From: Kiritimatiellia bacterium
GTDB taxonomy: Bacteria > Verrucomicrobiota > Kiritimatiellia > RFP12 > UBA1067
DNA: 31,320 bases
NCBI GenBank assembly: GCA_024405255.1
Contig: JAKSOY010000020.1
Coordinates: 1-31,320 of the forward strand
Direction of reading: 5' to 3'
The notes under the pieces were generated by a model that did no database searches, was not told where the DNA came from, and worked only from the letters and a program-made list of their open reading frames with translations. The translations under genes and the position numbers were made by a program. Of this stretch, positions 11,855 through 29,895 are shown one piece after another. Each line of letters begins with the position of its first letter. The first letter of the stretch is position 1.

Positions 11855-13963
11855 TTAACGGGCCTTCAACGTGAACGACGCGGAATCATACTTGCCGTCC
11901 AGCGTGATCGCGAGACCGTTCTTCATCAGTTCCGCGCCCGTGAAGGACTTCCCGTCGACCGTGCTGTGCAGACGCGTGCCGCAGTTGATTTCCGTCACGC
12001 AGTACGTGCGGGCGGCATCGAGTCCGCGCGGACAAAGCTTCGCCGTGCGCTGACCGTCCACATCGAGGCCAAGTGCGAACAGCACCGCCGCATCCTTCTT
12101 TTCATCCACATACATCAACGACGCATAGGAATTCTCGTACGGCGAGGCGAGACGATAGAGGTCGCCCTGCTGCACGATCGGACGGATCTTCTTGTAGTCC
12201 GCCACAGCCGCCTGCGCGAAGGCGATTTCCTCAGGCTTCAGATCCTTCGGATGAAGCTCGAAACCCAGGCGCCCGACCATCGCCACATCGAAACGGTATT
12301 TCAACGGCGTCACACGCCGCGTGTGGTGGTTCGGCACCGCCGTCACATGGCACGCCATGGCGCACGCCGGATAGAACTGCAACGAGCCCCACTGGATGAA
12401 GATGCGGTCCAGCGCATCCGTCCGATCGCTCGCCCAGAACTCGTCCGCATAGCGGAGGAATCCGTAGTCCATGTGGCCACCGCCCGACGCACAGGCCTGC
12501 GTCATGATGTTCGGCCGCTTCGACTCCAGCTTCGCCAGCAGATCGTAGAGGCCCACCGTGTAGTCGTACCAGAGGTTGGGCTGGCGGTCGGCAGGGAGGT
12601 AGGTCGAACCCGGGTTCACGATGTTCTGGTTCGAGTCCCACTTGATGAACGCCAGCGTGGGCATCGACGCATAGACCTTGTCGAGCATGTCGTAGATGCG
12701 CGCGCGCACCGCCGGGTTCGTGTAGTCGAGCACAACCTGGCTGCCGCCGCGGCCGAGGGCGAGCGGACGCCCTTCCTCGCGCAGGATCCACTCGGGATGC
12801 TCCTCGGCCAGCCAGCTCGCCGTGTTGACCATCTCGGGCTCCACCCAGATGCCGAACTGGAGTCCGCGCCGATTCGCTTCATTCGCGAGCCAGCCGAGTC
12901 CATGCGGCAGTTTCTCCGTATTCACATACCAGTCGCCCAGCCCCACCTTGTCGCGATGCACATTGTCGCGCGCGTACTTGCCCTTGCCGAACCAGCCGTC
13001 GTCCAGCACGAACATTTCACCGCCCATCTGCTTGACGCCGTCCATCATGTCCGTCAGCGTCTTCTCCGTGAAGCTGAAGTACGAACCCTCCCAGCTGTTG
13101 AGCAGGATCGGATGCAAGTCACGTCCATGCGGCAGGCAGTGGTTGCGCGCCCAGCGGTGGAGCTGACGCGAGACCTCGCCCTTGCCCTGTTCGCTCCACA
13201 CGAGAATCGCCTTCGGCGTCGTGAAGGTCTTGCCCGCGTCCAACGTGTAGGGTCCCGTCGTCATATCGACGCCGGCGAACACTTCCGTGGTCGAACCATC
13301 CCACGCGCGACGTACGCGCCGGCAGGTGGAGCCGGTCCATTCCAGCGCCACACCCAGGACGCGCCCCTCTTCTTCATTCACCTTTTCGCCGAACGACACC
13401 ATCATCGCCGCATTTGACTCCCAGGCGCTGCGCGTACCGGCCTTCGAGGAGAGTTCCACGATCTGCCCGTTGCCCACAGGAGCCTCGCTGACATTCGCCT
13501 CTTTCGCCCACACGCCCGTCAGGGACATCACCCGTACCGTCTTCGCCGAGGCCTTGACCGGCGCGGCGAAGCTATCCGCGCGCAACAACTTGACCGGACC
13601 CTTCTCGCTGTGCGAGACCTCGACCCACGTTTCAACCGCCCCGCAGTCGGGCCAGCTGAGGATGTGGCGTACCACGCGGAACGGACGCACTTCGTCCTGG
13701 CATGTAATCACCACATGCTTCGCGGCACCTTCCATTTTCTCTTCACGTCCCGTCTCTTTCAGACGCAACGTCACTGCGCCATCCGCATGGATGACCTGCA
13801 GACCCGCATGCTTCACGATCTCGCGCTGGTGGCTCGGAATCACCTGTCCGAACACGAGATAGCCTTCACTCGCCACCTGCGCCGAAGTCAACGGGGCCGC
13901 AGCCACCGACAATGCCATCGACGCGGCCATCATCGCCGTCATCAACACTGTTTTCGAATTCAT
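11855..13963 (-). CDS. Secreted GH36-type alpha-galactosidase
   Basis: 702 residues, a normal length for bacterial GH36, with a signal peptide (cleavage near AAA at 21-23) and a strong AAGGAG six bases before the ATG. An N-terminal beta-sandwich is followed by the TIM barrel with VLDDGWFG (319-326), IWVEPEMVN (372-380), the nucleophile Asp443 in KWDSNQ, CASGGGHMDYG (491-501) and the acid/base Asp513 in SDRTD. A beta C-terminal domain ends the protein. It should release alpha-linked galactose from oligosaccharides outside the cytoplasm. Several consensus positions differ (KWDMNR is KWDSNQ, GGGR is GGGH, NNWEATYF is NSWEGSYF), so the specificity may not be plain galactose. It starts 45 bases after the GH2 stop, probably in one operon. 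Confidence 0.93.
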   Translation of the reverse strand: MNSKTVLMTAMMAASMALSVAAAPLTSAQVASEGYLVFGQVIPSHQREIVKHAGLQVIHADGAVTLRLKETGREEKMEGAAKHVVITCQDEVRPFRVVRHILSWPDCGAVETWVEVSHSEKGPVKLLRADSFAAPVKASAKTVRVMSLTGVWAKEANVSEAPVGNGQIVELSSKAGTRSAWESNAAMMVSFGEKVNEEEGRVLGVALEWTGSTCRRVRRAWDGSTTEVFAGVDMTTGPYTLDAGKTFTTPKAILVWSEQGKGEVSRQLHRWARNHCLPHGRDLHPILLNSWEGSYFSFTEKTLTDMMDGVKQMGGEMFVLDDGWFGKGKYARDNVHRDKVGLGDWYVNTEKLPHGLGWLANEANRRGLQFGIWVEPEMVNTASWLAEEHPEWILREEGRPLALGRGGSQVVLDYTNPAVRARIYDMLDKVYASMPTLAFIKWDSNQNIVNPGSTYLPADRQPNLWYDYTVGLYDLLAKLESKRPNIMTQACASGGGHMDYGFLRYADEFWASDRTDALDRIFIQWGSLQFYPACAMACHVTAVPNHHTRRVTPLKYRFDVAMVGRLGFELHPKDLKPEEIAFAQAAVADYKKIRPIVQQGDLYRLASPYENSYASLMYVDEKKDAAVLFALGLDVDGQRTAKLCPRGLDAARTYCVTEINCGTRLHSTVDGKSFTGAELMKNGLAITLDGKYDSASFTLKAR

Positions 13964-14008: not shown

Positions 14009-17000
14009 TCAGGGACGCGCCTGCGTACCGGCCCGCACAGCGGACGACGGATCGTTGGGATTCGTCGCCAGATTGGCGTTCTTCTTGCCTCTCACGGTCG
14101 GCACGTCAAGCAAACGCGCCAAATCGTTGACCGTGATCTTGTCCACGGGATCGAAAGCGTCCGACGCCGCATAGGCGACGAGCCGATTCCGCAGCCACAT
14201 CTGCGCCGGCGTTTTGCCCTGCACATTGAGTCCGCACACGAGCAGACGTCCACCGCCCACGCGATACTCGAAGAGCGCCGCACGCCGAATCGGGAACCGT
14301 GCCGGCGTCACCATCTGCACGATCGGGTCGAACGGTACGGGACCTTCCAGCTGGGCGGCCCGTCCCCCTTCCAGCAACCGGCGGAATTCCCAGCCGCAAT
14401 AGCCTTCACTCGGCAACCCCGCCAACGCGGGATGTCCTTTTTTGACGACGGTCGCCACATGTCCGTTACTGCGGCCGGCAAGCGTCGAACGGAAACTCGT
14501 CCCGGCGCTCCTGAACGGTCCCGCCCCGAAAAGCAGTACGCGCTCGCCCCGCGTCAACGCCGCCAGCAGATCGGCACGCGAAATCTCGCTCACCACACGC
14601 ACGTTCGCCGCCTTCGGCGCCGTCGTCTTCGGGAAACCGTAGAGTTCCCACTCGTTTTCCACCGTCGCTCCGCACGCAGCCGAGAACTGCGCCTTCAGGA
14701 AATACTTGACGGGCACCGTGGAGGCGGGTACGTTCACCTGGCATCCCGCGAGCGCGCTCAAGCACCCGTTCAGCACGGTACCGCAGGGGAACGTACGCGT
14801 CCAGACGGACTGTCCGCCTGCCGCCCGGACGAGCGAGACCGTCAGCTGCGCGTCCGCGAAATCACGCGCGTAGTTTGAGATTGAAAAGGCGATCCGCTTC
14901 TCCGTTCCCGCCTCGACCGTGAAGTCGCTGCCGAGATCCGCCAGCAGCACGGCGGGCGAATTATAACGCCGCACATTCGCCACCGTCTCGCCTGGCTTGA
15001 GGCGGTAGAATTCATCCATCATGCCGACGCTATAGCCGAAGGTGTGTCCATGCGTGTTGATGTCGCCAAGGAAGTCGTAGCCGGCCACGCGATCGGCCGA
15101 ACGCACCTTTTCGAACGTGAACTTGCGGATGCGCCGCATCCATTCGCTCGAGTTGCGGAAGTAGAGATCGGCCTTGGCGTATTCGCCCTTCTCAAGCAAG
15201 TGACGGCGAAGTCCCTGGAACATGCCCGTCGCGAGGATCGGCGAATCGGCGGGATAGAGCTTCTCGGTCGAGAAGTCGACAAAGGTGCCGTCGATTGAAA
15301 TCTCGTGCGAAAGGCGCGGCTTGCCACAGTAGACATCACCCCAGGCATCAAGCGTGGAAGGTCCGGCACTGTTCAGCGAATCGTAGCTTGTGAGACCGAG
15401 CTGATAGGAGTTGAAAAGATCGCTGTATTGGGCGACGCGCGCCATCCGTTTCGGATTGTGGGCAAACGGCGTCTTCACGATCTCGTCCTTCCCCTTCATC
15501 AGCGCGTATTCGATACCGCGCATCGCGCTCATCGGCGAGAAAAGCGCGTCCGTGCCCGTATGCACCATCTCGGCGACATGACGCAGGTAATCTTCGGCCA
15601 CCCGGTCGATACGCGTCTCGTTGCCCGTGCAGTAGATGACGACGGAAGGATGGCGACGCGCGAAGGCGATGATCGCGGCGAACTCCTCCTCACTCACGAA
15701 GTTGGGCGTTTCGACATGCACGAGCATGCCGAGTTCATCTGTCGCTTCAAAATATTCCTCCACGGGAATGAAGGTGTGGAACCGCACGAAGTTGAACCCG
15801 AGTTCCTTGCGTTTCGCGGTGATCTGGCGATAGGTCTCCAAGTCGCGCGGCAGATGGACCGTCTTCGGGAAATAGCAATGCTCCGTCACACCCCGCAGAT
15901 AGACGGGCGCGCCATTGAGACGCATTTTCTCGCCTGCGGCCACGAGCCGACGGATGCCGAAACGCTGGCGATACTCGCCTTGCGGCGTCTTCAGCGTCAA
16001 CGTATAGCGGTGGGGAGATTCTGGCGACCACCAGGCATAGCCTTCCGTCGAAAGCGTGAAATCGCCCTTCGCACGACCATGGGCAACAGCCCGCGCACCA
16101 TCGGAAATCGTCCAGTCGAAACCGTCCGCACCGCCCGTCACATGTACGGTGAAGGACTGCAGATCCGCCGCCGTCGTCACATAGACATCTGAAATCGGGT
16201 TCTTCACGAACCGCAGTTCACACCGCCCGTCGATGCCGCCCGTCGCGCGGAAAAGCGAACGCGTGGTCATGCCGGAGACATCCGCCTCGCAGTAGGCGAA
16301 GTTCGGCGTGTTCGCAACGGCCAGCACGATCTCGTTCGTTCCCTTGTGGAGCACGCCCTCCGGCACGGCGAGTTCGAACGGCGTGGAAAAGCCCTGACGG
16401 AAAGCGATGAAGCGTCCGTTGATCCACGCGCCCACTTCGTTGCGCACGCAATCGAACGCAAGCACGGCCGGTCCCGTATGGTCAAGCGTGAACGAGCGCC
16501 GATAGAAGAACGCACCGTAGATATTGGGACGCGTCATGTCGCAGGCATAGTCGGTGATTGGATAGGTCTGCACCACGTGGAGCGGATTGATCCGGAAGTC
16601 GTCCGTCATTCCCGCCGCACGGAACGTCTTCTCCTGGTCCTCCCAGAAACCCGGCACCGCATTCGTGATCGTCACGCCCTTGAAGACGGGGCACGCACCC
16701 GAACGCCACGGCGTAGGGCGATAGGCCATCTCCCACGTGCCGGCGAGCGAGACGGACTCGGTCATCGCATGTGCGCGCACGCGTTTCGCGAGGCGATCGG
16801 CCGGCTTCGGCAGAAGGTCCACCCAGTCGTACACATCGAGCGCACCAGAGACGGTATTCGCAAACGGGATGCCGTAGCCCTCGCGCACACACATCGTCCA
16901 CGGGGGCGGTGCTTCGATCGTCTCGACATCCGAAACGAGGTCGCGGCGCGCGGCAAAGGCATGTGCGGCGGCGATCGCCGTACGCCCGTAGGAAACGATC

Positions 17001-17758
17001 TGCGGAGCCCTCCCGTAGCGACGCTTCAAGTCGCTCGCAATCTCAAGGAGTTCGCTCGCCTGTTCACCCGCAAGCGTCTTCCCGAGCGTGTAGAGCAGCA
17101 CCGCGACGCTCTTGACCTTTTCAGGGCGCGCATCGTGCTCGAAGCGGCATCCATCGATCTCGCCCGTGCCCAGCAGATCCGCAACAACCACCACGCGTCC
17201 TTCCGCGAGCGCCTTCTCGACGGCGCGCCGCCGCCCCGTGCGGTTCCCATCGCCCACGATGATCGTCGGCGCTCCTGCCGACGTCTTCGGCACAAATGTC
17301 ACCGACGGCACCTTATGGTGCTTTTCAGGCCACTCGTACGATTCGCTCACGACGGTGAGATCGCCTTCGAGCGCGGAACGCGCCTTCTCGACGCGCGTCA
17401 CCTTCTGTACGCCCGGCTGCGTGATGCGCGCGACGCGGCATACGGTCTCAGATGCGGACGAGTCCTTCCTCTTTGCGAGGGCGGCATCGAGTTCGTCACA
17501 GAGGACGCCAAAGACCGTCCGTTCGTCCGGCAGGTCGAAGACGGGGCCCTTGATGTCAGACCGGCTTCCCACATCCAGTACAAGCACCAGGTCCGAAACG
17601 AAGCGGTGGGAATTCATCGCGCCATCCGTTCCCAGCACGCGCTTGCCAAGATGTTCGAACAGTTCGTCCGGAACGACCTGCGGCAGTTCCGCCGCGCCCA
17701 CAGCTGCGACAAGACTCAAACATGCAACAACCACCCCGGCAAACTTCTGGCGCTTCAT
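14009..17758 (-). CDS. Secreted GH2-family glycoside hydrolase with degenerate esterase-like N-terminal domain
   Basis: 1249 residues, longer than most GH2 enzymes, with a signal peptide ending near GAA (21-23). Residues about 50-330 look like the alpha/beta-hydrolase domain of acetylxylan-esterase-like proteins, but the Ser elbow reads SYGRTAIA (256-263) with no nucleophile in the usual place. GH2 domains follow: sugar-binding jelly roll 335-515, immunoglobulin-like 525-605, and TIM barrel 605-900 with the acid/base Glu714 in CTGNET and the probable nucleophile Glu819 in LSHEIS. Residues about 1045-1205 form a further alpha/beta domain that resembles ThuA or class I glutamine-amidotransferase folds. 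The substrate is likely a beta-galactoside or related plant or host glycan. The ATG is 5 bases after the stop of the phosphatase gene. Confidence 0.88.
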   Translation of the reverse strand: MKRQKFAGVVVACLSLVAAVGAAELPQVVPDELFEHLGKRVLGTDGAMNSHRFVSDLVLVLDVGSRSDIKGPVFDLPDERTVFGVLCDELDAALAKRKDSSASETVCRVARITQPGVQKVTRVEKARSALEGDLTVVSESYEWPEKHHKVPSVTFVPKTSAGAPTIIVGDGNRTGRRRAVEKALAEGRVVVVADLLGTGEIDGCRFEHDARPEKVKSVAVLLYTLGKTLAGEQASELLEIASDLKRRYGRAPQIVSYGRTAIAAAHAFAARRDLVSDVETIEAPPPWTMCVREGYGIPFANTVSGALDVYDWVDLLPKPADRLAKRVRAHAMTESVSLAGTWEMAYRPTPWRSGACPVFKGVTITNAVPGFWEDQEKTFRAAGMTDDFRINPLHVVQTYPITDYACDMTRPNIYGAFFYRRSFTLDHTGPAVLAFDCVRNEVGAWINGRFIAFRQGFSTPFELAVPEGVLHKGTNEIVLAVANTPNFAYCEADVSGMTTRSLFRATGGIDGRCELRFVKNPISDVYVTTAADLQSFTVHVTGGADGFDWTISDGARAVAHGRAKGDFTLSTEGYAWWSPESPHRYTLTLKTPQGEYRQRFGIRRLVAAGEKMRLNGAPVYLRGVTEHCYFPKTVHLPRDLETYRQITAKRKELGFNFVRFHTFIPVEEYFEATDELGMLVHVETPNFVSEEEFAAIIAFARRHPSVVIYCTGNETRIDRVAEDYLRHVAEMVHTGTDALFSPMSAMRGIEYALMKGKDEIVKTPFAHNPKRMARVAQYSDLFNSYQLGLTSYDSLNSAGPSTLDAWGDVYCGKPRLSHEISIDGTFVDFSTEKLYPADSPILATGMFQGLRRHLLEKGEYAKADLYFRNSSEWMRRIRKFTFEKVRSADRVAGYDFLGDINTHGHTFGYSVGMMDEFYRLKPGETVANVRRYNSPAVLLADLGSDFTVEAGTEKRIAFSISNYARDFADAQLTVSLVRAAGGQSVWTRTFPCGTVLNGCLSALAGCQVNVPASTVPVKYFLKAQFSAACGATVENEWELYGFPKTTAPKAANVRVVSEISRADLLAALTRGERVLLFGAGPFRSAGTSFRSTLAGRSNGHVATVVKKGHPALAGLPSEGYCGWEFRRLLEGGRAAQLEGPVPFDPIVQMVTPARFPIRRAALFEYRVGGGRLLVCGLNVQGKTPAQMWLRNRLVAYAASDAFDPVDKITVNDLARLLDVPTVRGKKNANLATNPNDPSSAVRAGTQARP

Positions 17759-17763
17759 AGTTT

Positions 17764-19770
17764 TTAGACCTTCATTTCGAGTGAAAAGATGTTCTGTCCA
17801 TCCTCACGGCGATAGTCGACACGCGTCGCAAGCTTCTTCACGATCATGATACCGAGCCCGCCGATGGGACGATCTTCGGCGGCCAGCGTGGTATCGGGAT
17901 CGGCGTGTTCAAGGGGATTCCAGGGTTTGCCATGGTCGATGAACGAAAGGCACATCGACGCGGGGCGTCCCTCGCACGCGAAATCAAGACGAATGTCGGG
18001 GCTCCCGGAGTAGCTGATCACGTTCCCGGCGATTTCGTCGGTCGCCACCATCATCTTCGGAAGGACAGACGCAGGGCACCCGCTGCGCAGAAGGTTCTCT
18101 TCCACGAAGGCGGCAATCTTGGACATGTTCTCCGGCTTGGCCTCCACCACGAGCGAGGACGAAGCATTGAAGTCCAACACCAGCACCGTCTGATCGTCGA
18201 ACTGTTCGGCCGCGCCGGCGAAACCGTCGACCGAAGCAAACAAGTCGGACACGAAATCGCCCGCAGGACTCCCGGCATGTTCACTGCAGAAACGGCACAT
18301 CCGTTCGTTCCCGTACTGCTGGTGGTCTGTCGTCTCCGCCTCGGTGATGCCATCGGAATAGAGGACGAGCCGTTCGCCCGGTTGGAACACGCGCGTTTCC
18401 GCGCGATAGGGGAAGTCTTCCATGGCACCCAGCACGATATTACGCTTCACCTTGAGAAACTCCGCCGTGCCGTCGGCCGCGACCAACACGGGCGGATTGT
18501 GGCCGGCGTTACACCAGTCAAGCGTACCTGTCCGACGATCGAAGACGCCGACGAAGAACGTCATGAACATGCTTTTTTCATTGTGACGCGAAAGTAGGCC
18601 GTTCATGCGCGAAGTCAGCTCGCTGGCGGAAAGTCCCAAGTCGGCCGCAAAACGGAACGCCGAAGACGCGGCGAATGTAATCAAGGCGGAAGGCACGCCC
18701 TTACCCGAAACATCGCCGACGGCAAAATAGAGACGATCCCCCTTCTCGAAGAAATCATAGAAGTCGCCGCCGACCTCGCGAGCCGGTTTCAGCGCGGCGT
18801 GCAGGAACGGCGGGAAGCGACGGTCCAGCATGCCCATCTGGATTTCAGAACCGATGGCAAGTTCGCTGCGAATGCGCGATGTTTCCTGCTCCTGCTTTTC
18901 AAGGCGTTTGGTGAAAAACCAGGCGAGCGCGAAGATGAGTCCCAGGCCGACGGCTGAAAAGATCATAATCCGCGAAACGAGCCGCCGCGAATCGGCGATG
19001 ATGTTGGTCACAGGGCAGTTGAGCGTAATGACCCAGCCGTTGTCAGCCTTGCCGACAATTCCGACCATTGACTCTTTGAGCGAAGTCCCCTTAGGTTTCC
19101 CGTCTGCCAGAGGGCTCCCCTTCGCCGAAACAAGCGTCGCGTATGAATTCGGATACGGATGGATCGTTTCCACATGGCGCGTGAGCCGTTCCAACGAGAC
19201 ATCCGACGTGATGACGGCCTTCATCTTTCCATCGGGACCAATCACCGGCTTGGAATACGTACACATCATCACTTCACCGCCGCCCTTGTCATAGTAGGGT
19301 TCGCTCCAATGGGGTTTCATCGTGTCGGATGCGACCTTATACCATTCCATTTCGTGATAACGGTAATCATCGGTTCCCAGCTGCTTGCTCAAGACCTTGC
19401 CTTCCTGGTTCTGCCAGGAGTAGGGAGAAAAGCGCAAACCCTTCACCGCGAAGAAGTTCTCCGGGAAGGCGATGGCACTGCCCACGATGAAGTGGTTGTT
19501 GAGCACGAGCTGCTGCGTGATGCGATACATGTAGTCGGGATCGCCGATATGCTCGTTGACAATCCACACGGAATTGCCGACGGCGGTTTCGACATCCGAC
19601 ATCATTCCGTCGATACGCTCCACGGTGGCATCGACAATCGTACGCACCGTCTTACGCACTTCGTCCTCCATCATCTGTGCCGTACTACGCGCGACGACCC
19701 AACCGACCAAGAGGAACAAAATGGTCGTGGTGACGATAATACTCAGGTTCAAATACTTTTTCTTCATCAT
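17764..19770 (-). CDS. Cache-sensor PP2C (SpoIIE/RsbU-type) phosphatase fused to an anti-sigma-type HATPase kinase domain
   Basis: 668 residues. TM1 lies at about 10-27, an extracellular double-Cache-like sensor at 30-262 (PENFFAVKGLRFSPYSWQ and GKMKAVITSDVSLERL are typical), and TM2 at 266-286. The PP2C domain spans 305-534, with metal-binding acids in GGDFYDF (Asp336), GDVSGKG (Asp352), SDGITEAE (Asp473) and FDDQT (525-526). The C-terminal HATPase (540-668) has an intact N-box DEIAGN (Glu579, Asn583), G1 IDHGKPW (Asp612) and G2 PIGGLG. It should therefore both phosphorylate and dephosphorylate a STAS protein in response to an external ligand. The STAS gene lies two genes upstream in the same run. 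The start overlaps the MATE stop (ATGA). Whether the first or second ATG is used is unclear. Confidence 0.93.
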   Translation of the reverse strand: MMKKKYLNLSIIVTTTILFLLVGWVVARSTAQMMEDEVRKTVRTIVDATVERIDGMMSDVETAVGNSVWIVNEHIGDPDYMYRITQQLVLNNHFIVGSAIAFPENFFAVKGLRFSPYSWQNQEGKVLSKQLGTDDYRYHEMEWYKVASDTMKPHWSEPYYDKGGGEVMMCTYSKPVIGPDGKMKAVITSDVSLERLTRHVETIHPYPNSYATLVSAKGSPLADGKPKGTSLKESMVGIVGKADNGWVITLNCPVTNIIADSRRLVSRIMIFSAVGLGLIFALAWFFTKRLEKQEQETSRIRSELAIGSEIQMGMLDRRFPPFLHAALKPAREVGGDFYDFFEKGDRLYFAVGDVSGKGVPSALITFAASSAFRFAADLGLSASELTSRMNGLLSRHNEKSMFMTFFVGVFDRRTGTLDWCNAGHNPPVLVAADGTAEFLKVKRNIVLGAMEDFPYRAETRVFQPGERLVLYSDGITEAETTDHQQYGNERMCRFCSEHAGSPAGDFVSDLFASVDGFAGAAEQFDDQTVLVLDFNASSSLVVEAKPENMSKIAAFVEENLLRSGCPASVLPKMMVATDEIAGNVISYSGSPDIRLDFACEGRPASMCLSFIDHGKPWNPLEHADPDTTLAAEDRPIGGLGIMIVKKLATRVDYRREDGQNIFSLEMKV

Positions 19771-21485
19771 CCCTCTGCGCTTTCTACCCTACGATTGAAT
19801 TTAAAGACATTGCGATTATAGCCGGTGGTGGTGAGGTTCATCCGGTTCTTCTGCACATTCATCAGCGACGCCACCAAATAGGATCGGAGCGACGAGATTT
19901 TCGCATCGGCATCGGTAATGTCGAAAACCTCGCCGTCGTCACGCAGCACCAGCGAAGGTTCCTCGTCCAGCATCAGCGTCGCCTCGGCGAGGACGGACCG
20001 ACCGACATTTCGTTCCTTCACGGCCATGAACACTTCCTCAATGAGCAATTCGGCCCGTACAGCCGAGTCCGTCGCACCGTTCGCCCGAAGGAGAGACCCG
20101 ATTTCAGAGGAGACCCGGCAAATCGCCTGGTCCTCAAGTTTCAGATCGAACATCGCAATCGACGACTCCCGCGAACGATCCAGCAACCACGGCATCCGCC
20201 CGCGGCCTTCACGCATCCAAAGCCACACGGCAACCAACACACAAGACAGCACAGGGGCCATACCCAGCGCCAGCCAAACACCCGAGATGCCCCACAGCGT
20301 CCCCATCGGCAGGCAAAGCGAAACAGGCACGAGCAACCCCGACAGCACCGTCAGCATGGCCGACAACAACCCGCGATCAATGAATGCAAAATAGGAATTG
20401 AAGAGCGCCACCAGACCGAGTCCGACCATCCCCGCCGCCGTGAAGCGCACAGCCGTCGCGGCCGAAGCGACCAAGGGCGGATCGGTAATGCCCAACAGAC
20501 GCGTGAGCAGGATCGGACAAAGAACGAGCAAGGCGCCTAGTGCGACAGATGCCGCCAACATCGTTTTCAGCGCCATCGTCATCACCTGTCGGATACCCCG
20601 CAGATTACCTTCTCCATAATAGACGCTGACCAAGGGCTGGGCCGCATTGGCAGGGCCATTGAAAGCTTCGGAGATCCCCAGAACCGTGAGTGCAGCACCT
20701 AAGACCGGCAACATCTTCGAACCGAAATGCGCAACCACATAATGCGTCAACAGGAGGAAGAGCGCGGCATTGCAAAGTCGTGAACCCGCATCGCCAAACG
20801 AGGTCTTGACGATTGCCCCCAAATCGCGGAAACTGAAATGGCGTACAACGCGAAGCGTATTCGCTTTCCGCCGAAAATGAAGCAACAACACGAGAATGGC
20901 CAAGAGATTCCCCAAGGTCGTACCCAACCCGCAGCCGGACATTCCCAGAACAAATGTGAGCGGCACTGAAAACACGCAATTGCCGACGAACTGAACGACA
21001 TAAGACACCACGCAGAGGCGAGAATCACCGTCCGCATAGCAGGCATTGGCCAGTACGACAGCCAGAAGTTCCAACAACGCACACGGCGACCACCACACCC
21101 AATAGGAGGTGGCGAGGCTGCAGGTCTCGGCCGTAGCCCCGAGCAACGCCAGGAACGGACCTCGAACAGCCAGCATCGCCCCCCACAGAAACACGCCAAA
21201 TGCCAATGCGCTCCAGATTCCCACCGAAAACATTTCCACAGCCCGGCGCCGCTGGAAACGTCCCATCTCGACGGAGAAGCAAATCGCCGCCCCCACACCC
21301 AATAACGCGCTGAAAAACGAAATCAGGTTAATCGGCGACTGAAGCAGATTCATGGCTCCCAGCGCCGTCTCGCCAAGGATATTGCCGACGACAACCTCAT
21401 CGGACAGTGACATGAGGAATTCGATCAACGTCGAAAAAGTCGCCGCCAGCAAGAGTCCGCAGTACTTGGAGCCACAAAAGGTCAT
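19767..21485 (-). CDS. MATE-family transporter with C-terminal HATPase-like (anti-sigma-kinase-like) tail
   Basis: 572 residues. Residues 1 to about 428 are a full MATE/MatE transporter with about 12 membrane segments (SDEVVVGNILGETALGAMN at 28-46, FNGPANAAQPLVSVYYGEGN at 275-294), normally a cation-coupled exporter of drugs or metabolites. Residues 440-572 are soluble and follow an RsbW-like HATPase pattern: N-box-like LLIEEVFMAV (480-489), G1-like LRDDGEVFD (514-522) and a last strand TTGYNRNVFKF (553-563). The N-box Asn is replaced (E484 is followed four residues later by Ala), and the glycine-rich G2 loop is absent, so ATP binding is doubtful. The tail may instead dock the STAS protein from the adjacent gene. 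The STAS stop is 14 bases upstream. The start is preceded by a GGGG/CCCC hairpin and a three-codon frame (ATG CCC CCA TGA) ending on the start codon. Confidence 0.88.
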   Translation of the reverse strand: MTFCGSKYCGLLLAATFSTLIEFLMSLSDEVVVGNILGETALGAMNLLQSPINLISFFSALLGVGAAICFSVEMGRFQRRRAVEMFSVGIWSALAFGVFLWGAMLAVRGPFLALLGATAETCSLATSYWVWWSPCALLELLAVVLANACYADGDSRLCVVSYVVQFVGNCVFSVPLTFVLGMSGCGLGTTLGNLLAILVLLLHFRRKANTLRVVRHFSFRDLGAIVKTSFGDAGSRLCNAALFLLLTHYVVAHFGSKMLPVLGAALTVLGISEAFNGPANAAQPLVSVYYGEGNLRGIRQVMTMALKTMLAASVALGALLVLCPILLTRLLGITDPPLVASAATAVRFTAAGMVGLGLVALFNSYFAFIDRGLLSAMLTVLSGLLVPVSLCLPMGTLWGISGVWLALGMAPVLSCVLVAVWLWMREGRGRMPWLLDRSRESSIAMFDLKLEDQAICRVSSEIGSLLRANGATDSAVRAELLIEEVFMAVKERNVGRSVLAEATLMLDEEPSLVLRDDGEVFDITDADAKISSLRSYLVASLMNVQKNRMNLTTTGYNRNVFKFNRRVESAEG

Positions 21486-21499
21486 GGGGGCATCCCCAA

Positions 21500-21799
21500 T
21501 CAGACAACCGTGAAAATGTCGGAGAAGCCCGTCATCTCGAAGACATCCTTCACGGCCGTATTGGCGTGAACCACCTGAATCTCGCCACCGACCGAACTCA
21601 TTTGCTTGTGCATGCTCAACAGCACACGCAGACCGGCCGAGGAAATGTATTCAAGCGCGGAGAAATCGAAAACCAGCCGACGCACGTCGCCTGGATACTC
21701 CGACAAAGCACCTTGGAGCTCCGGCGCGGTCATCGTATCGAGGCGTCCCTCCACGACAACGGTTGCGACCTCGCCCTCAATATTTTTCTTAATCGTCAT
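21500..21799 (-). CDS. STAS-domain protein (anti-sigma factor antagonist type)
   Basis: 99 residues, a single STAS domain of the SpoIIAA/RsbV type. The ATG at 21799 is preferred over a TTG four codons upstream because GAGG lies just before it. The conserved segment FDFSALEYISSAGLRVLL (44-61) contains Ser54, which aligns with the phosphorylated Ser of SpoIIAA and RsbV; the preceding Asp of those proteins is Ser53 here. The GRLDTMTAPELQ segment (18-29) is typical. It should bind a HATPase kinase partner when unphosphorylated and be reset by a PP2C phosphatase. Both kinds of partner are encoded directly downstream. No sigma factor is nearby, so the output is unknown. Confidence 0.92.
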   Translation of the reverse strand: MTIKKNIEGEVATVVVEGRLDTMTAPELQGALSEYPGDVRRLVFDFSALEYISSAGLRVLLSMHKQMSSVGGEIQVVHANTAVKDVFEMTGFSDIFTVV

Positions 21800-21819
21800 T
21801 TCAAGCCTCAAGTGTCAGA

Positions 21820-22086
21820 TTACTTCGCATTGTTGATGGCCTCGCGCATCATGCGCAACACCTGGCCGATCGCATCGATGATAGCCGTCGACTCGTAACG
21901 GTCGATCCAACCGTCGGACAGCTGCTTGTCGAGTTTGGCGATGGCGAAATCGTAGGTGCCATCGTGGTTGTGCTCGGAAAGCCAGCAGCGGATCACCCGC
22001 GCCTCGTCCGTATCGATCTTCGAATCCTGGAGGATTCCCTTAGAGAGCAACCAGAACTCGTCCCTCTCCTGCTGAGGTGTCATCAT
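21820..22086 (-). CDS. Small acidic helical protein, TerB-like, first gene of the signalling module
   Basis: 88 residues from the ATG at 22086, seven bases after AAGGAG; a start two codons earlier lies too close to that site. The protein seems to hold two copies of a helix-turn pattern: ILQDSKIDTDEARVI (18-32) and LSDGWIDRYESTAII (56-70). This resembles the short helical modules of TerB-like and BRCT-associated proteins, where the acidic loop between helices may bind a metal. There is no signal peptide or membrane segment. It is 20 bases upstream of the STAS gene and shares the promoter at 22159-22167, so it is probably part of the same system. Family assignment is tentative. Confidence 0.7.
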   Translation of the reverse strand: MMTPQQERDEFWLLSKGILQDSKIDTDEARVIRCWLSEHNHDGTYDFAIAKLDKQLSDGWIDRYESTAIIDAIGQVLRMMREAINNAK

Positions 22087-22158
22087 TTTCATTCTCCTTT
22101 TTTCTCTTATTGAAATCAACAATCACCATCGAATGCGTTCCATTGCGGTGACTGGTAT

Positions 22159-22167
22159 ATTGTACCA
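22159..22167 (-). promoter_or_regulatory. Extended -10 promoter of the STAS/MATE/PP2C module
   Basis: TGGTACAAT on the minus strand is a TACAAT -10 with the TGn extension; the -35 region is poor. Transcription would start near 22152, about 65 bases before the small-protein start. It lies in the 109-base gap after the DUF1232 gene, the largest gap between 29835 and 4035, so this is the natural start of a new transcription unit. Confidence 0.45.
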
Positions 22168-22195
22168 AAACCAAGGCAAAAGAACGAGCGTAAGT

Positions 22196-23365
22196 TCAGG
22201 TTAAAGACTTGGCACGGAGGGCTTTGAATGTCTGGATGACGCCGCCTCCGCCGAGCGAAACGATGATGAAGTCGTCGAGGGAGCCCAGGAACGGAATCGC
22301 ATCGGGAATCAGATCGATCGGCGTCACCCACCAGAGGAGCGCCAGGACGCCCACGACCACGCAACGCGGCACCAGCGCCACCGCGAGCCAGGGATTGTGC
22401 GGACGGAGCAGCGTCTCCGTCGGACGGATTTCCGTGCGTCCGCGAATCACACGCACATCCACCAGCCCGTGTTCCGCCACCAGCCGATTGAGGATCTGCG
22501 GCGTCACCTGCGTTCGCACAACAGCAGCATCAAGACCGAACTGTTCCGCATAGCAGCGAAAGACGATCTCATAAATCGTCTGCGGTGAAACGGTTCCCTC
22601 TTCGCAGACCTTGCGCAGCACGCGAATCGAACACCGGCGCTCGGCCTCGTCCGTCACCTGTCGCAGGTGGTTCACCATGTTCTCGTTCAGGATCTCCGGG
22701 GTGATGTCGTGGAACTGCAGGGCGAGTCCCGCCACCAGCACCAGGACACCCGCCAGAAACGCCCCCGAGGGCACTTGCGCGGGGTCCGCCAATTTGAACG
22801 CCAGCAGAAACGCAAACGCCGTGAAGACGAGCCCCACCCGCAGGATCTTGTTCTGCGCGGCCGTCAGCGCAAGGCAGATCAGCACGAAGAGTCCCGCCGC
22901 CTGGGGCGATGCGAAAATCTCCTTGATCGGATTCGGAATCAGCGCGAGCAGTCCCACCCAGCTGGCCATGGACTTGATTCCCGTCGCCAGCTGGTGCAGC
23001 AGATTGCCGTCCGTCGCCACGAGATGTTCGGACGGTGCCCCCACCAAACGCGCCAGGAACAACGTCATCGGCAGAATCAGCAACATCTGCAAAACAAGAT
23101 TGCCACCCCGACTGCGACCCAAATACCCCCAGTCGAAGCAGATGGCGCTCACGAGAATCACGCTGATCAGAATCACATAGCCACCCTGGGCGTAGGAGAA
23201 CGTCTCTCGACCGAACCACGGATCCAACGCCATCAAAGCCGATGCCACGAGATAGAGCGCCAATACCACAAACCAGCGAACACTGAAGAACGACTGAACA
23301 CCATGCCGTCCCAGGACCCATGTCGGTGCAAACAGACCGTCGCAGAATCGCGTGTTCCCACTCAT
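22196..23365 (-). CDS. Multi-pass membrane protein with C-terminal DUF1232 (YkvA-like) domain
   Basis: 389 residues from the ATG at 23365, which overlaps the upstream stop (ATGA) and has AAGGG before it; an upstream in-frame ATG would give 408. Membrane segments lie near 29-48, 62-78, 88-107, 135-147, 157-170, 174-190 and 201-216. A soluble region (217-325) follows with KVCEEGTVSPQTIYEIVF and a segment RVIRGRTEIRPTETLL. The C-terminus is DUF1232, with the hallmark WWVTPIDLIPDAIPFLGSLDDF (345-366). DUF1232 proteins are membrane proteins of unknown function, so no reaction can be stated. The preceding gene also encodes a membrane-anchored protein, which suggests a complex. Confidence 0.8.
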   Translation of the reverse strand: MSGNTRFCDGLFAPTWVLGRHGVQSFFSVRWFVVLALYLVASALMALDPWFGRETFSYAQGGYVILISVILVSAICFDWGYLGRSRGGNLVLQMLLILPMTLFLARLVGAPSEHLVATDGNLLHQLATGIKSMASWVGLLALIPNPIKEIFASPQAAGLFVLICLALTAAQNKILRVGLVFTAFAFLLAFKLADPAQVPSGAFLAGVLVLVAGLALQFHDITPEILNENMVNHLRQVTDEAERRCSIRVLRKVCEEGTVSPQTIYEIVFRCYAEQFGLDAAVVRTQVTPQILNRLVAEHGLVDVRVIRGRTEIRPTETLLRPHNPWLAVALVPRCVVVGVLALLWWVTPIDLIPDAIPFLGSLDDFIIVSLGGGGVIQTFKALRAKSLT

Positions 23366-27387: not shown

Positions 27388-29835
27388 TTACTTCACCTGC
27401 CACTCGAGGATACCGCCCGAGACTTCCTTCTGCAACTGGACGTCGAGACGGATGGCGCTCGCACGAATCGGCTTCGGGAACGTGAAGTCGCAGAACTTGT
27501 CCTTCGCAACCGGGTACGTGCCGTCAATCTTCTTCCACGGCGCATTCGGGGTCTCGCGGTACGAGATCGACCACGAGGCGGGAATGCGGCAGCGGCCCAC
27601 GCCGGTATCGTCGAACCAGTAGACGGACGTGCTCTTGATCTCTTCCGCCTGCGGGAAGTTGTATTCGACCCATTCGGCCGTACCAAGGTGCGACCAGAAC
27701 GTCAGGCGCGGAATCGACTGGTCGCCCGAAGACTTCGGCAGAATGCCGTCGCTGGCCGCCGCCGCGCTGTCGACAGGCCACACATGCGAGGCCTTCGTCG
27801 GATAGCCCTTGATGTCCGTATTCGAAACCGTAGGGAACCACGTCTGCATCTCGCCCGCACCGCGGTGGCACCAGGCGAAATACGGCACAAGCGTCAGCTT
27901 CGACTGCTCGACCTTGATGGAGTTGAGTCCGCGAATCACCGTCTCGGCCTCGGTCACGAGCGCCGGGTAGACGTTGCCGAGAATCGAGCAGGTCGAGAGC
28001 GCGAACGTCGCATTCGGCTTCACCACCTTGTTCAGCACCTTGCCGCCGTCATCCACGCCTTCGGCGCAGTAGACGATCGGACCACGCTCGACCGCGAGAC
28101 GGCCGCGGTCATCCGCAACCGCCGGATGCGCCCACACGCGGCGCACGGGCATGTTCATCGTCACATCGACCGTGTCGCCCGGCTGCCACGCGCGCGAAAT
28201 CACGCAGTAGCCCTTCTCGGGTGTGAAGGTGAAGGGCTTCCCGTTCACCTTCACCGCGAAGTCGGCGAGCGTACCCGGAATCACCTGACGGTAGAGATCG
28301 CTCGGCACGGGTTCGCCCACGCACCAGCCCGGCACACGCACATGCAGCGCAAAGGTCGCACCGGCCTTCGGCGGAGTCACGGTGAGGCGGGTCGCGCCTT
28401 CCCACGGATAAGCCGTCTTCTGTTCAAGCTTCACCTCGCCACAGGCGAGCTTCAGCTTCGCGTCGCTCGCGACGAACAGGTTCGCATAGAGCGCATCGCC
28501 GCGCGTCGCATAGGCGAACTGCGCGATCTGCGGAATGAAGCGCACCACGTTCACGGGGCAGCACGAGCAGCCAAACCACTTCGAGCGCTTGTAGCCGCCG
28601 GCGGACGCGAGCGGATTCGGATAGAAGAACTCGTCGCCGCCGAGCGAGATGCCGCTCAGGAAACCGTTGTAGACGACGCGTTCGAGCACGTCGATGTACT
28701 TCGCCTCGCCGTGCAGGAGGAACATGCGCTGGTTCCAGAGGGCGTTCGCGATGCCCGCGCACGTCTCCAGGTAGGCGCTCTGGTTCGGCAGCTCATAGTT
28801 CTTGCCAAAAGCCTCGCCCGCGTGGCGCGCACCGATCGAACCGTTGAGGTGCAGCTTCTTCTGCACGACGTTCTCCCAGATGGCGTCGATAGCCTTCACG
28901 TAGTCCGTATTACCCGTCAACGCCGCGACATCGGCCATGCCGCAGTAGAGGTAGCCGGCGCGCACGGCGTGGCCGACGGCCTCGCGCTGCGCAACCACCG
29001 GAACGTGGTTCTGGTTGTAGTTGCCGCGTGCCGTCATCGCATCGCCCTGCACGAGCTTGCCCGACTGCGCGAAGATCTGCGACGTCATTCCCGTCATCTC
29101 GGCACCGCGCTGATCGAGGAAGTGCTTCGCGAGCTTGAGGTAGCGCTCTTCGCCCGTCGCCCGGTAGAGCTTGCAGAGCGCGAGTTCGATTTCTTCATGT
29201 CCCGGCACGTGCTTGAGCTGCTTCTCGCCCGGACCGAACGTGCGGTCCACGAGATCGGCGTTCTTGATGGCGACGTCGAGCAACGTACGCTTGCCCGTCA
29301 CTTCCCAATACGCGACGGCCGCCTCGTACATGTGGCCGACGTTATAGAGCTCGTGACTCGACGGACAGTTGCTCCAGCGCGTGGGGCCCATCATGCCATA
29401 CTGCGTCACACCGTTCCTCACGCCATAGTTGAAGCCGAGCGTGCGGGCCGTGTAGAGATAGCCGTCCTCTTCCTGTGCGGACGCCATCTTCGCGATCAGA
29501 TTGTCGATGTAGGCTTCCAGCTTCTTGTCCGGATGCGTGGACAGCGTATAGGCCGCGCCCTCGACGATCTTGAACACGTCAGAGTCGTTGAACGGGATGC
29601 CGACGAACTTGCCCTTGCGCTTGCCCGCATTCTCGAAATTGGAGATGCGCCCCGTCTCCTCGCTCTTCTTGAAGTCGCTCCAGACGGTAACGATCCGGTT
29701 CGTTTCGAAACGCGGCAGCCAGAAGCCCGCGCGAATCGCGACATTCGTCATCTCAGCCGGCTGGAACGGATAGTCGCCCGCCCAGACGGTGCCTACGGCG
29801 ACCATCGCCACCGCGCTCAAAACCACTTTCTTCAT
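27388..29835 (-). CDS. Secreted GH127-type beta-L-arabinofuranosidase with discoidin-like C-terminus
   Basis: 815 residues from the ATG at 29835, chosen for its signal peptide (MKKVVLSAVAMVAVGTVWAG) and GAGGG site six bases away; an upstream start would add 20 unsupported residues. The helical-barrel domain includes ETC (Glu357, Cys359) and CSCCPVNVVR (423-432). In the characterised GH127 enzyme HypBA1 a Glu, a Cys and a CC pair bind zinc and supply the Cys nucleophile, so Cys425 is the likely nucleophile. Beta domains follow (470-680), and residues 690-815 resemble an F5/8-type carbohydrate-binding sandwich. It should remove L-arabinofuranose from plant arabinans or glycoproteins. A promoter precedes it, and it starts a run with nadA. 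Confidence 0.92.
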   Translation of the reverse strand: MKKVVLSAVAMVAVGTVWAGDYPFQPAEMTNVAIRAGFWLPRFETNRIVTVWSDFKKSEETGRISNFENAGKRKGKFVGIPFNDSDVFKIVEGAAYTLSTHPDKKLEAYIDNLIAKMASAQEEDGYLYTARTLGFNYGVRNGVTQYGMMGPTRWSNCPSSHELYNVGHMYEAAVAYWEVTGKRTLLDVAIKNADLVDRTFGPGEKQLKHVPGHEEIELALCKLYRATGEERYLKLAKHFLDQRGAEMTGMTSQIFAQSGKLVQGDAMTARGNYNQNHVPVVAQREAVGHAVRAGYLYCGMADVAALTGNTDYVKAIDAIWENVVQKKLHLNGSIGARHAGEAFGKNYELPNQSAYLETCAGIANALWNQRMFLLHGEAKYIDVLERVVYNGFLSGISLGGDEFFYPNPLASAGGYKRSKWFGCSCCPVNVVRFIPQIAQFAYATRGDALYANLFVASDAKLKLACGEVKLEQKTAYPWEGATRLTVTPPKAGATFALHVRVPGWCVGEPVPSDLYRQVIPGTLADFAVKVNGKPFTFTPEKGYCVISRAWQPGDTVDVTMNMPVRRVWAHPAVADDRGRLAVERGPIVYCAEGVDDGGKVLNKVVKPNATFALSTCSILGNVYPALVTEAETVIRGLNSIKVEQSKLTLVPYFAWCHRGAGEMQTWFPTVSNTDIKGYPTKASHVWPVDSAAAASDGILPKSSGDQSIPRLTFWSHLGTAEWVEYNFPQAEEIKSTSVYWFDDTGVGRCRIPASWSISYRETPNAPWKKIDGTYPVAKDKFCDFTFPKPIRASAIRLDVQLQKEVSGGILEWQVK

Positions 29836-29866
29836 AAGGTTCCCTCTCGAATTTTCAAATGGGGAT

Positions 29867-29895
29867 ATTTTAGCAGAAATTCCCCCAGCGGACAA
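29867..29895 (-). promoter_or_regulatory. Extended -10 promoter of the GH127 gene
   Basis: On the minus strand, -35 TTGTCC (29890-29895) and -10 TAAAAT (29867-29872), preceded by TGC, with a 17-base spacer. The predicted start lies near 29860, about 25 bases before the ATG. The run of genes from here to 22196 has no gap above 40 bases. Confidence 0.55.

Follow-up and report, generated by a model that had tools for sequence, protein, structure and literature searches.

A MATE exporter with a degenerate HATPase-like tail in a candidate STAS, PP2C and kinase module of a Kiritimatiellia bacterium

Gene content of the locus

We have analysed a window of 31,320 nucleotides, meaning the whole stretch of DNA studied, from a gut-type bacterium of the Kiritimatiellia. 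Four genes on the minus strand form a module at positions 17764-22092 when ATG is taken as the start of each (Table 1). The sequence-only reading had described these genes as tightly packed, and this was confirmed: 20 nt separate the P0001 and STAS genes, 14 nt separate the STAS and MATE genes, and the sensor gene shares 4 nt with the MATE gene. The STAS, MATE and sensor proteins all have Pfam matches. That reading had also assigned the module its own promoter, which was not supported, as the 103-nt gap at 22093-22195 contained nothing resembling a promoter in a scan restricted to the sigma-70 consensus. In the same scan of 17500-22500, three sites were found, all inside genes, compared with an average of 1.9 in shuffled sequences. 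Downstream, the gene of a GH2 protein (14009-17758) begins 5 nt past the stop codon of the sensor gene, and therefore the boundary of the module is not clear on this side.

Table 1. Features of the module in the window, with protein residues where domains of P0004 are given
Feature	Position	Strand	Evidence
P0001, 90 aa	21820-22092	-	predicted four helices; two D..D..E-type motifs
P0002, STAS-only protein	21500-21799	-	PF01740 5.6e-17; candidate phosphosite Ser54 (YISSAGLR)
P0003, MATE protein, whole gene	19767-21485	-	PF01554 6.7e-23
P0003, MATE domain, residues about 1-425	20211-21485	-	PF01554; Asp29 alignment
P0003, C-terminal tail, about 426-572 (~147 aa)	19770-20210	-	degenerate RsbW/SpoIIAB-type HATPase
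P0004, sensor	17764-19770	-	PF22673 9.5e-24; SpoIIE PF07228 2.9e-51; HATPase_c_2 PF13581 1.9e-17
P0004, PDC/Cache sensor region	residues 82-197		PF22673 9.5e-24
P0004, SpoIIE-type PP2C phosphatase	residues 344-534		PF07228 2.9e-51, profile positions 2-191 of 192
P0004, HATPase_c_2 kinase	residues 543-664		PF13581 1.9e-17; motifs intact

The first protein, P0001, had been called TerB-like, a name based on motif only that we could not support. P0001 had no Pfam match at E up to 1, and its predicted fold had no clear match in Foldseek (best E 1.0). Among 33 aligned members of its family, TerB was matched by 2 (best E 0.012) and DUF533 by 4 (best E 0.16), both at a limit of E 1. The family profile matched PDB entries weakly, with EF-hand proteins among the matches and E-values of no less than 0.03. 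Homologues of P0001 numbered 8 among 9 candidates, and frames of the family lie directly upstream of the MATE-tail gene at four loci (L011, L025, L030 and L039).

P0002 and P0004 agree with what had been claimed for them, namely a STAS antagonist with Ser54 and a sensor carrying both phosphatase and kinase domains. The TIGR00377 match of P0002 exceeds the family cut-off, and its relatives of solved structure include SpoIIAA and RsbV. Ser54 lies in a loop whose two serines are invariant across 20 aligned STAS proteins in terms of residue presence only, and this position is the usual phosphosite in SpoIIAA and RsbV. A phosphorylatable serine in the conserved STAS loop, a PP2C/SpoIIE phosphatase and a HATPase kinase whose N, G1 and lid motifs are all intact, which together characterise a partner switch, are all encoded here as judged by sequence. 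For the Cache domain of P0004, amino-acid sensing was considered as a possibility on the basis of a motif.

The module had also been described as having no sigma factor, and this holds for the window: the 18 window ORFs scanned against Pfam gave no match to sigma or anti-sigma families beyond the module's own domains, and so no linked factor of the kind that marks a sigma-controlling partner switch. NRPS domains were likewise absent from these 18 ORFs, and the window locus does not belong to the NRPS-linked MATE loci. These two negative results refer to the scanned ORFs of the window only, and unlinked sigma or anti-sigma factors may exist elsewhere in its genome; the genome-wide counts given below refer to the genomes of relatives.

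The tail of the MATE protein

In addition to its MatE domain, P0003 has a DinF-type membrane Asp: Asp29 aligns with Asp40 of BH2163, which we take to be the membrane Asp of DinF-type members. The tail that follows had been read as HATPase-like. The window's own tail had no Pfam match at E up to 1, and a sequence-profile search of the PDB gave no relevant match, therefore we turned to a fold search. The model of the tail has a middling pLDDT of 73.9, falling below 50 at 100-104, 124-136 and 147-151, and its predicted fold is of the RsbW/SpoIIAB type, with no Foldseek E-value reaching 0.001. Kinship with HATPases is also visible through relatives. The HATPase-like description thus stands in terms of kinship and predicted fold, and fails in terms of a Pfam match of its own and of the catalytic motifs.

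The N-box Asn and the GGxG lid, which define the RsbW/SpoIIAB-type serine kinase, are missing in all 120 listed members of the tail family, the window's MATE included, and in 47 of 47 locus tails, a set that shares species with the former. The N-box Glu and the G1 Asp-x-Gly are retained in nearly all tails, including that of P0003. On these motifs, the tail is a degenerate HATPase. Of the 27 kinase HATPases encoded at these loci (the window sensor and 26 others), none has lost the N-box Asn or GGxG. Considering that the tail is degenerate, the STAS kinase is likely to be the HATPase of P0004 itself rather than the MATE tail.

The opposite reading, in which the tail has STAS kinase activity and the transporter senses cargo flow and phosphorylates STAS in response, seems to us highly improbable. 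It draws on tails that keep the N-box Asn, namely 19 of 19 Clostridia-type rows (P0132 and L049 being one protein) and 23 of 31 further tails from two other classes. GGxG was found in none of these 31, where a gap at the lid columns of L191 was scored as not GGxG. The 31 tails come from 33 further MATE-HATPase regions, chosen from the stronger matches with MATE-sized frames and in some cases cut by contig ends, after removal of L183 and L195 with a split MATE frame. Against an active kinase stand the loss of both motifs throughout the listed family of the window and the presence, in many loci, of a motif-intact kinase in the sensor or as a stand-alone protein beside it.

Recurrence across genomes and the STAS lineage

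The MATE tail, STAS and PP2C/kinase recur as a set across genomes far above chance. Based on MAG assemblies as given, with completeness not stated, a STAS gene was linked to the MATE-tail gene in 13 of the 21 genomes, compared with 0.23 expected, and SpoIIE in 11, compared with 0.26, the expected numbers being calculated from rounded genome sizes. A lack of conserved gene order elsewhere had been named as one of two points that would refute the sequence-only reading. In terms of gene content it is not refuted, as the content of MATE-tail loci recurs, though their gene order varies.

Some loci count against reading the transporter as the output. When a cluster is counted if any of its loci qualifies, 12 of 39 clusters include a locus with no STAS, PP2C or kinase gene less than 6 kb away. 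The same applies to 6 of the 20 clusters whose flanks reach 5 kb in either direction. Among the 33 further regions, 11 had a STAS, PP2C or kinase partner and 22 had none. This last count favours an explanation in which the tail regulates or stabilises the MATE protein alone, for instance as a nucleotide sensor, with no STAS binding, and in which the genes are grouped only since export and other outputs should respond to a single signal. The persistence of the N-box Glu and G1 Asp-x-Gly points the same way, as weak nucleotide binding by the tail is therefore possible. We regard this explanation as unlikely.

The tail is sparsely distributed and not universal. Its profile A3 was found in 4 of 240 genomes in the phylum of G001, in 4 of 193 in the class of G001, and in 5 of 196 in the class of G021 (E 1e-4). 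Also against the transporter as the output, STAS-PP2C-kinase sets with no MATE in view occur in the genomes studied (L077, L082, L089, L095, L096 and L097).

On the one hand, additional genes for STAS, SpoIIE and a stand-alone HATPase occur in several genomes at a distance from MATE. In G012, contig C11 carries a trio of STAS, HATPase and sigma genes of the SpoIIA-SigF type, and the MATE-linked STAS lies apart from it on C20. These observations would fit a MATE tail that is a membrane sink for STAS. The transporter would then signal its own state or simply retain STAS, and the real output would be an unlinked HATPase, for example an anti-sigma factor. On the other hand, G004 and G014 each show a single match to STAS, to SpoIIE and to HATPase_c_2, none of them more than 8 kb from MATE, and the HATPase_c_2 match is the sensor's own domain; therefore no candidate anti-sigma partner was seen there. 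Also, in a tree of Kiritimatiellia proteins built without the divergent unlinked L064, the MATE-linked STAS proteins form a lineage largely separate from unlinked STAS, with unlinked L078 and L080 ungrouped and outside the unlinked clade. The best BLAST match of the window STAS is an unlinked paralogue (L084, 53%), and the position of the window STAS in the tree is unsettled. Weighing both sides, we consider the sink rather unlikely.

A proposed switch acting on export

Partner switches are familiar chiefly as regulators of sigma factors. For this module, we lean slightly towards a phosphorylation-driven partner switch whose output is the transporter and not gene expression. The Cache domain of the membrane sensor P0004 would read an extracellular ligand, and the kinase and phosphatase domains of P0004 would set the phosphorylation of STAS at Ser54. 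Unphosphorylated STAS may then dock on the tail of the MATE exporter and open or close it. Since the tail would have retained the RsbW/SpoIIAB STAS-binding fold and lost the catalytic motifs, it could be bound without consuming the signal. The degenerate tail thus predicts binding without phosphorylation. If this is true, the transporter would represent a new type of effector, and an extracellular signal would reach export with no transcriptional step.

The module shares a STAS phosphosite protein, a HATPase kinase and a PP2C phosphatase with the Rsb and SpoIIA switches of Bacillus (RsbW-RsbV-RsbU and SpoIIAB-SpoIIAA-SpoIIE), but differs from them in having no sigma factor, in joining kinase and phosphatase in one sensor, and in a second, degenerate HATPase on the MATE protein. 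Rv1364c of Mycobacterium tuberculosis (3ke6, RsbU and RsbW domains) also combines a phosphatase and an RsbW-type domain in one protein, whereas P0004 is a Cache membrane protein and its STAS is encoded by a separate gene. Unlike SiaABCD of Pseudomonas aeruginosa (PMC7647112), the module would have a transporter as its output, with the docking domain fused to it. MatE and HATPase_c_2 fusion proteins have the same domain architecture as P0003 in 17 of 17 found, but their tails keep the N-box Asn, unlike that of P0003. One of the 17 is named ('ATP-binding protein'), and the entries examined give no function. A literature search, mostly without subscription papers, found no description of a MATE-HATPase protein as a partner-switch effector.

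In a broader and more tentative proposal, to which we give slightly less than even chances, an RsbW-type kinase domain was acquired by MATE exporters of a widespread class and its catalysis decayed, leaving a phospho-switchable dock through which STAS gates export directly and fast, not via transcription. The class would span Kiritimatiellia, Clostridia, Synergistales, a spirochaete and Fibrobacter, with the archaeon Methanobrevibacter as a possible further member, and part of the class would control nonribosomal peptide export in the gut and rumen. Outside the window, the tailed MATE often adjoins NRPS genes, and a nonribosomal peptide is the probable cargo in several other phyla. Kiritimatiellia are mostly without condensation domains, and a permease family with P1-like domains lies near 13 of 40 clusters there, neighbours that do not settle the cargo. 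In gut and rumen microbes, the adjoining NRPS genes raise the idea that peptide release may be switched post-translationally, which, if true, would matter for finding conditions that release such peptides.

The earlier statement that no function is described for this combination was nearly right. Leahy et al. (2010, PMC2812497) noted that in the Methanobrevibacter ruminantium NRPS cluster mru0066-0071 an anti-sigma antagonist, two serine phosphatases and an NRPS are encoded close to a MatE gene (mru0069), and they proposed a role in sensing, regulation of NRPS expression and export. The MatE, the anti-sigma antagonist and the serine phosphatases are common to this cluster and the window module, and NRPS is found only in the mru cluster.

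Organization of the module and its accessory protein

The four genes lie on the minus strand, tightly packed as the sequence-only reading had stated, with gaps of 20 and 14 nt followed by a 4-nt overlap between the MATE and sensor genes. Its description of a sensor carrying both phosphatase and kinase domains was also borne out, as SpoIIE and HATPase_c_2 were both matched in the sensor. The promoter that it had ascribed to the module gained no support from a scan for the sigma-70 consensus. A DUF1232 protein gene is located 103 nt upstream of the module, and the GH2 gene downstream, which starts 5 nt past the sensor stop, may be co-transcribed with it. Among the matches listed, the few relatives bearing names are Kiritimatiellae.

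Genes of the module and surrounding GH genes in the window
Feature	Coordinates	Strand	Domains by Pfam
P0001, 90-aa protein	21820-22092	minus	
P0002, STAS protein	21500-21799	minus	STAS
P0003, MATE-tail protein	19767-21485	minus	MatE
P0004, sensor	17764-19770	minus	PDC/Cache, SpoIIE, HATPase_c_2
GH2	14009-17758		
GH36 (melibiase)	11855-13963		
GH127	27388-29895		

We treated P0001 as accessory to the module. Eight of nine candidates were P0001 homologues, and frames of this family are located immediately 5' of MATE-tail genes in four loci of other genomes (L011, L025, L030 and L039). The predicted structure showed four helices (pLDDT 90.6) and gave no clear fold match in the structure search. 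Weaker, iterated-profile matches placed a P0001-like domain on nucleobase-type permeases, a phosphoribosyltransferase, a Na/H antiporter and an ABC ATPase; in L011, L012, L016, L026 and L047, a helical domain of this kind with DGxxDxxE motifs is apparently fused to such proteins, the permeases being Xan_ur_permease proteins. This part had no Pfam match in the fusion proteins scanned.

Recurrence of the gene association

Profile searches recorded STAS, PP2C, kinase and P0001-like genes around 49 MATE-tail loci of the genome collection. When the loci were grouped at 85% identity and partners were counted if encoded on the same strand no more than 6 kb away, STAS was found in 25 of 39 clusters, PP2C in 19, a kinase in 18 and all three in 14, while 12 contained a locus having none. 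In the 20 clusters whose flanking sequence reached 5 kb or more in both directions, the counts were 13 for STAS, 9 for PP2C, 10 for kinase and 6 for none. As a genome-wide control, 54 STAS and 61 SpoIIE matches were located in the 21 genomes obtained for 22 loci, out of the 49, that were selected once neighbourhood contents were known; STAS was linked to the MATE tail (within 8 kb, same strand) in 13 genomes against 0.23 expected, and SpoIIE in 11 against 0.26. Of the neighbourhood conservation on which the sequence-only reading depended, gene content held and gene order did not, the order being MATE-STAS-kinase in L002, MATE-PP2C-STAS in L009, STAS-kinase-MATE in L037 and NRPS-MATE-STAS-PP2C in L048. 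The kinase stands alone in L002, L004, L006 and L037, and additional MATE-HATPase fusions adjoin STAS or PP2C in L071, L088, L098 and L104. Both the parts of the module and their recurrence lend good support to a partner-switch-like mode of action.

The MATE tail and the proposed output of the switch

In SpoIIAB, the N-box Asn and the lid serve Mg-ATP. Aligned with kinases of the same loci, the tails lacked both the Asn and the GGxG lid in 47 of 47 cases, as did 120 of 120 listed family members, the two sets sharing some species; all 27 kinase HATPases of these loci kept both. In Clostridia-type tails (19 rows), the Asn and one lid Gly are present. We re-examined this degeneration outside the originating family with a second tail profile, A7, searched against 118 genomes of a class taken as Clostridia and 61 of a class taken as Synergistia. 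From the stronger matches, 33 regions with MATE-HATPase fusions were chosen, none of them a row of the profile; in 11 of them STAS, PP2C or a separate kinase is encoded, irrespective of strand. Because GGxG occurs in 0 of the 31 full-length further tails and the Asn is kept in 23, lid loss looks general for MATE tails, and Asn loss looks like an additional step in the window's family. Five kinase HATPases aligned from these regions, together with the window's kinase, kept both motifs.

Because the MATE protein bears the module's one other STAS-kinase-like domain, with the catalytic motifs lost there, we consider it somewhat probable from these sequences that the transporter is the output of the switch. 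Regarding other partners for STAS, sigma-70 family genes are present in 21 of 21 genomes, and other genomes contain STAS-PP2C-kinase sets without a visible MATE gene (L077, L082, L089, L095, L096 and L097). In each of the genomes with L011 and L038, a single match was found for STAS, SpoIIE and HATPase_c_2, and all three lie no more than 8 kb from the MATE tail; the sole HATPase_c_2 match is the sensor's own, and the absence of others is soft, genome completeness not being given.

In a STAS tree that omitted one divergent unlinked STAS (L064), a branch (96/90) parts 27 MATE-linked STAS, the window's included, from 7 unlinked Kiritimatiellia STAS; those of L078 and L080, also unlinked, were assigned to no group and did not join the unlinked clade. 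Placement of the window STAS was not firm, and the top BLAST match of this protein is an unlinked paralogue (L084, 53%). Judged from a larger tree of 60 sequences, the linked STAS are clustered and not of single origin, because the linked label changes 10 times against a shuffled mean of 19.3, with 0 of 500 shuffles as low.

NRPS neighbours, published systems and unusual fusions

A neighbouring gene carries a condensation domain in Synergistales (L040, L041, L043 and L069), Treponema ruminis (L042) and Fibrobacter (L044). The Clostridia loci L048 and L049 instead have a reductase gene (NAD_binding_4) ahead of MATE, with STAS and PP2C-HATPase after it; in L048 a carrier domain and an AMP-binding frame come with the reductase. 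No NRPS domain was seen next to the remaining non-Kiritimatiellia tail genes (L036 with its near-copy L046, L063, L067, L071 and L062, whose region ends at the contig end). An NRPS with condensation domains occurs in 4 of the 33 further regions (L173, L176, L191 and L197), and L176 and L197 combine NRPS, MATE, STAS and PP2C. Condensation domains were found in 7 of the 21 genomes, with G013 the only one among the 14 Kiritimatiellia-type genomes, and in 0 of the 18 window ORFs scanned.

Archaea are not known to have sigma factors; if they lack them, the switch of the archaeon M. ruminantium must end elsewhere. Leahy et al. (2010, PMC2812497) described an NRPS of this species around which two serine phosphatases, an anti-sigma factor antagonist and a MatE protein are encoded. 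The partner switch SiaABCD includes a di-guanylate cyclase (PMC7647112). The words MATE and efflux are absent from the excerpted portion of a review of STAS-only proteins (PMC8256260), and no account of a MATE tail as effector was found in the literature searched.

Several frames showed other arrangements. L064:5581-15315 encodes an NRPS in the order C-A-T-C-A-T-reductase; STAS and PP2C-HATPase come after it, and the 18 kb examined gave no MATE match. At L068:1664-5090, the frames of STAS and of an A-T-C NRPS, each delimited stop to stop, share 29 nt. The single open frame L101:5899-7800 has an N-terminal STAS match and then an AMP-binding match, and L076:6597-8909 is a 771-aa MATE-tail frame extending more than 200 residues beyond the tail match. 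An N-terminal STAS match and a C-terminal HATPase match, thus STAS and kinase in one protein, were found in each of the open frames L099:6758-8311 and L170:11205-12833.
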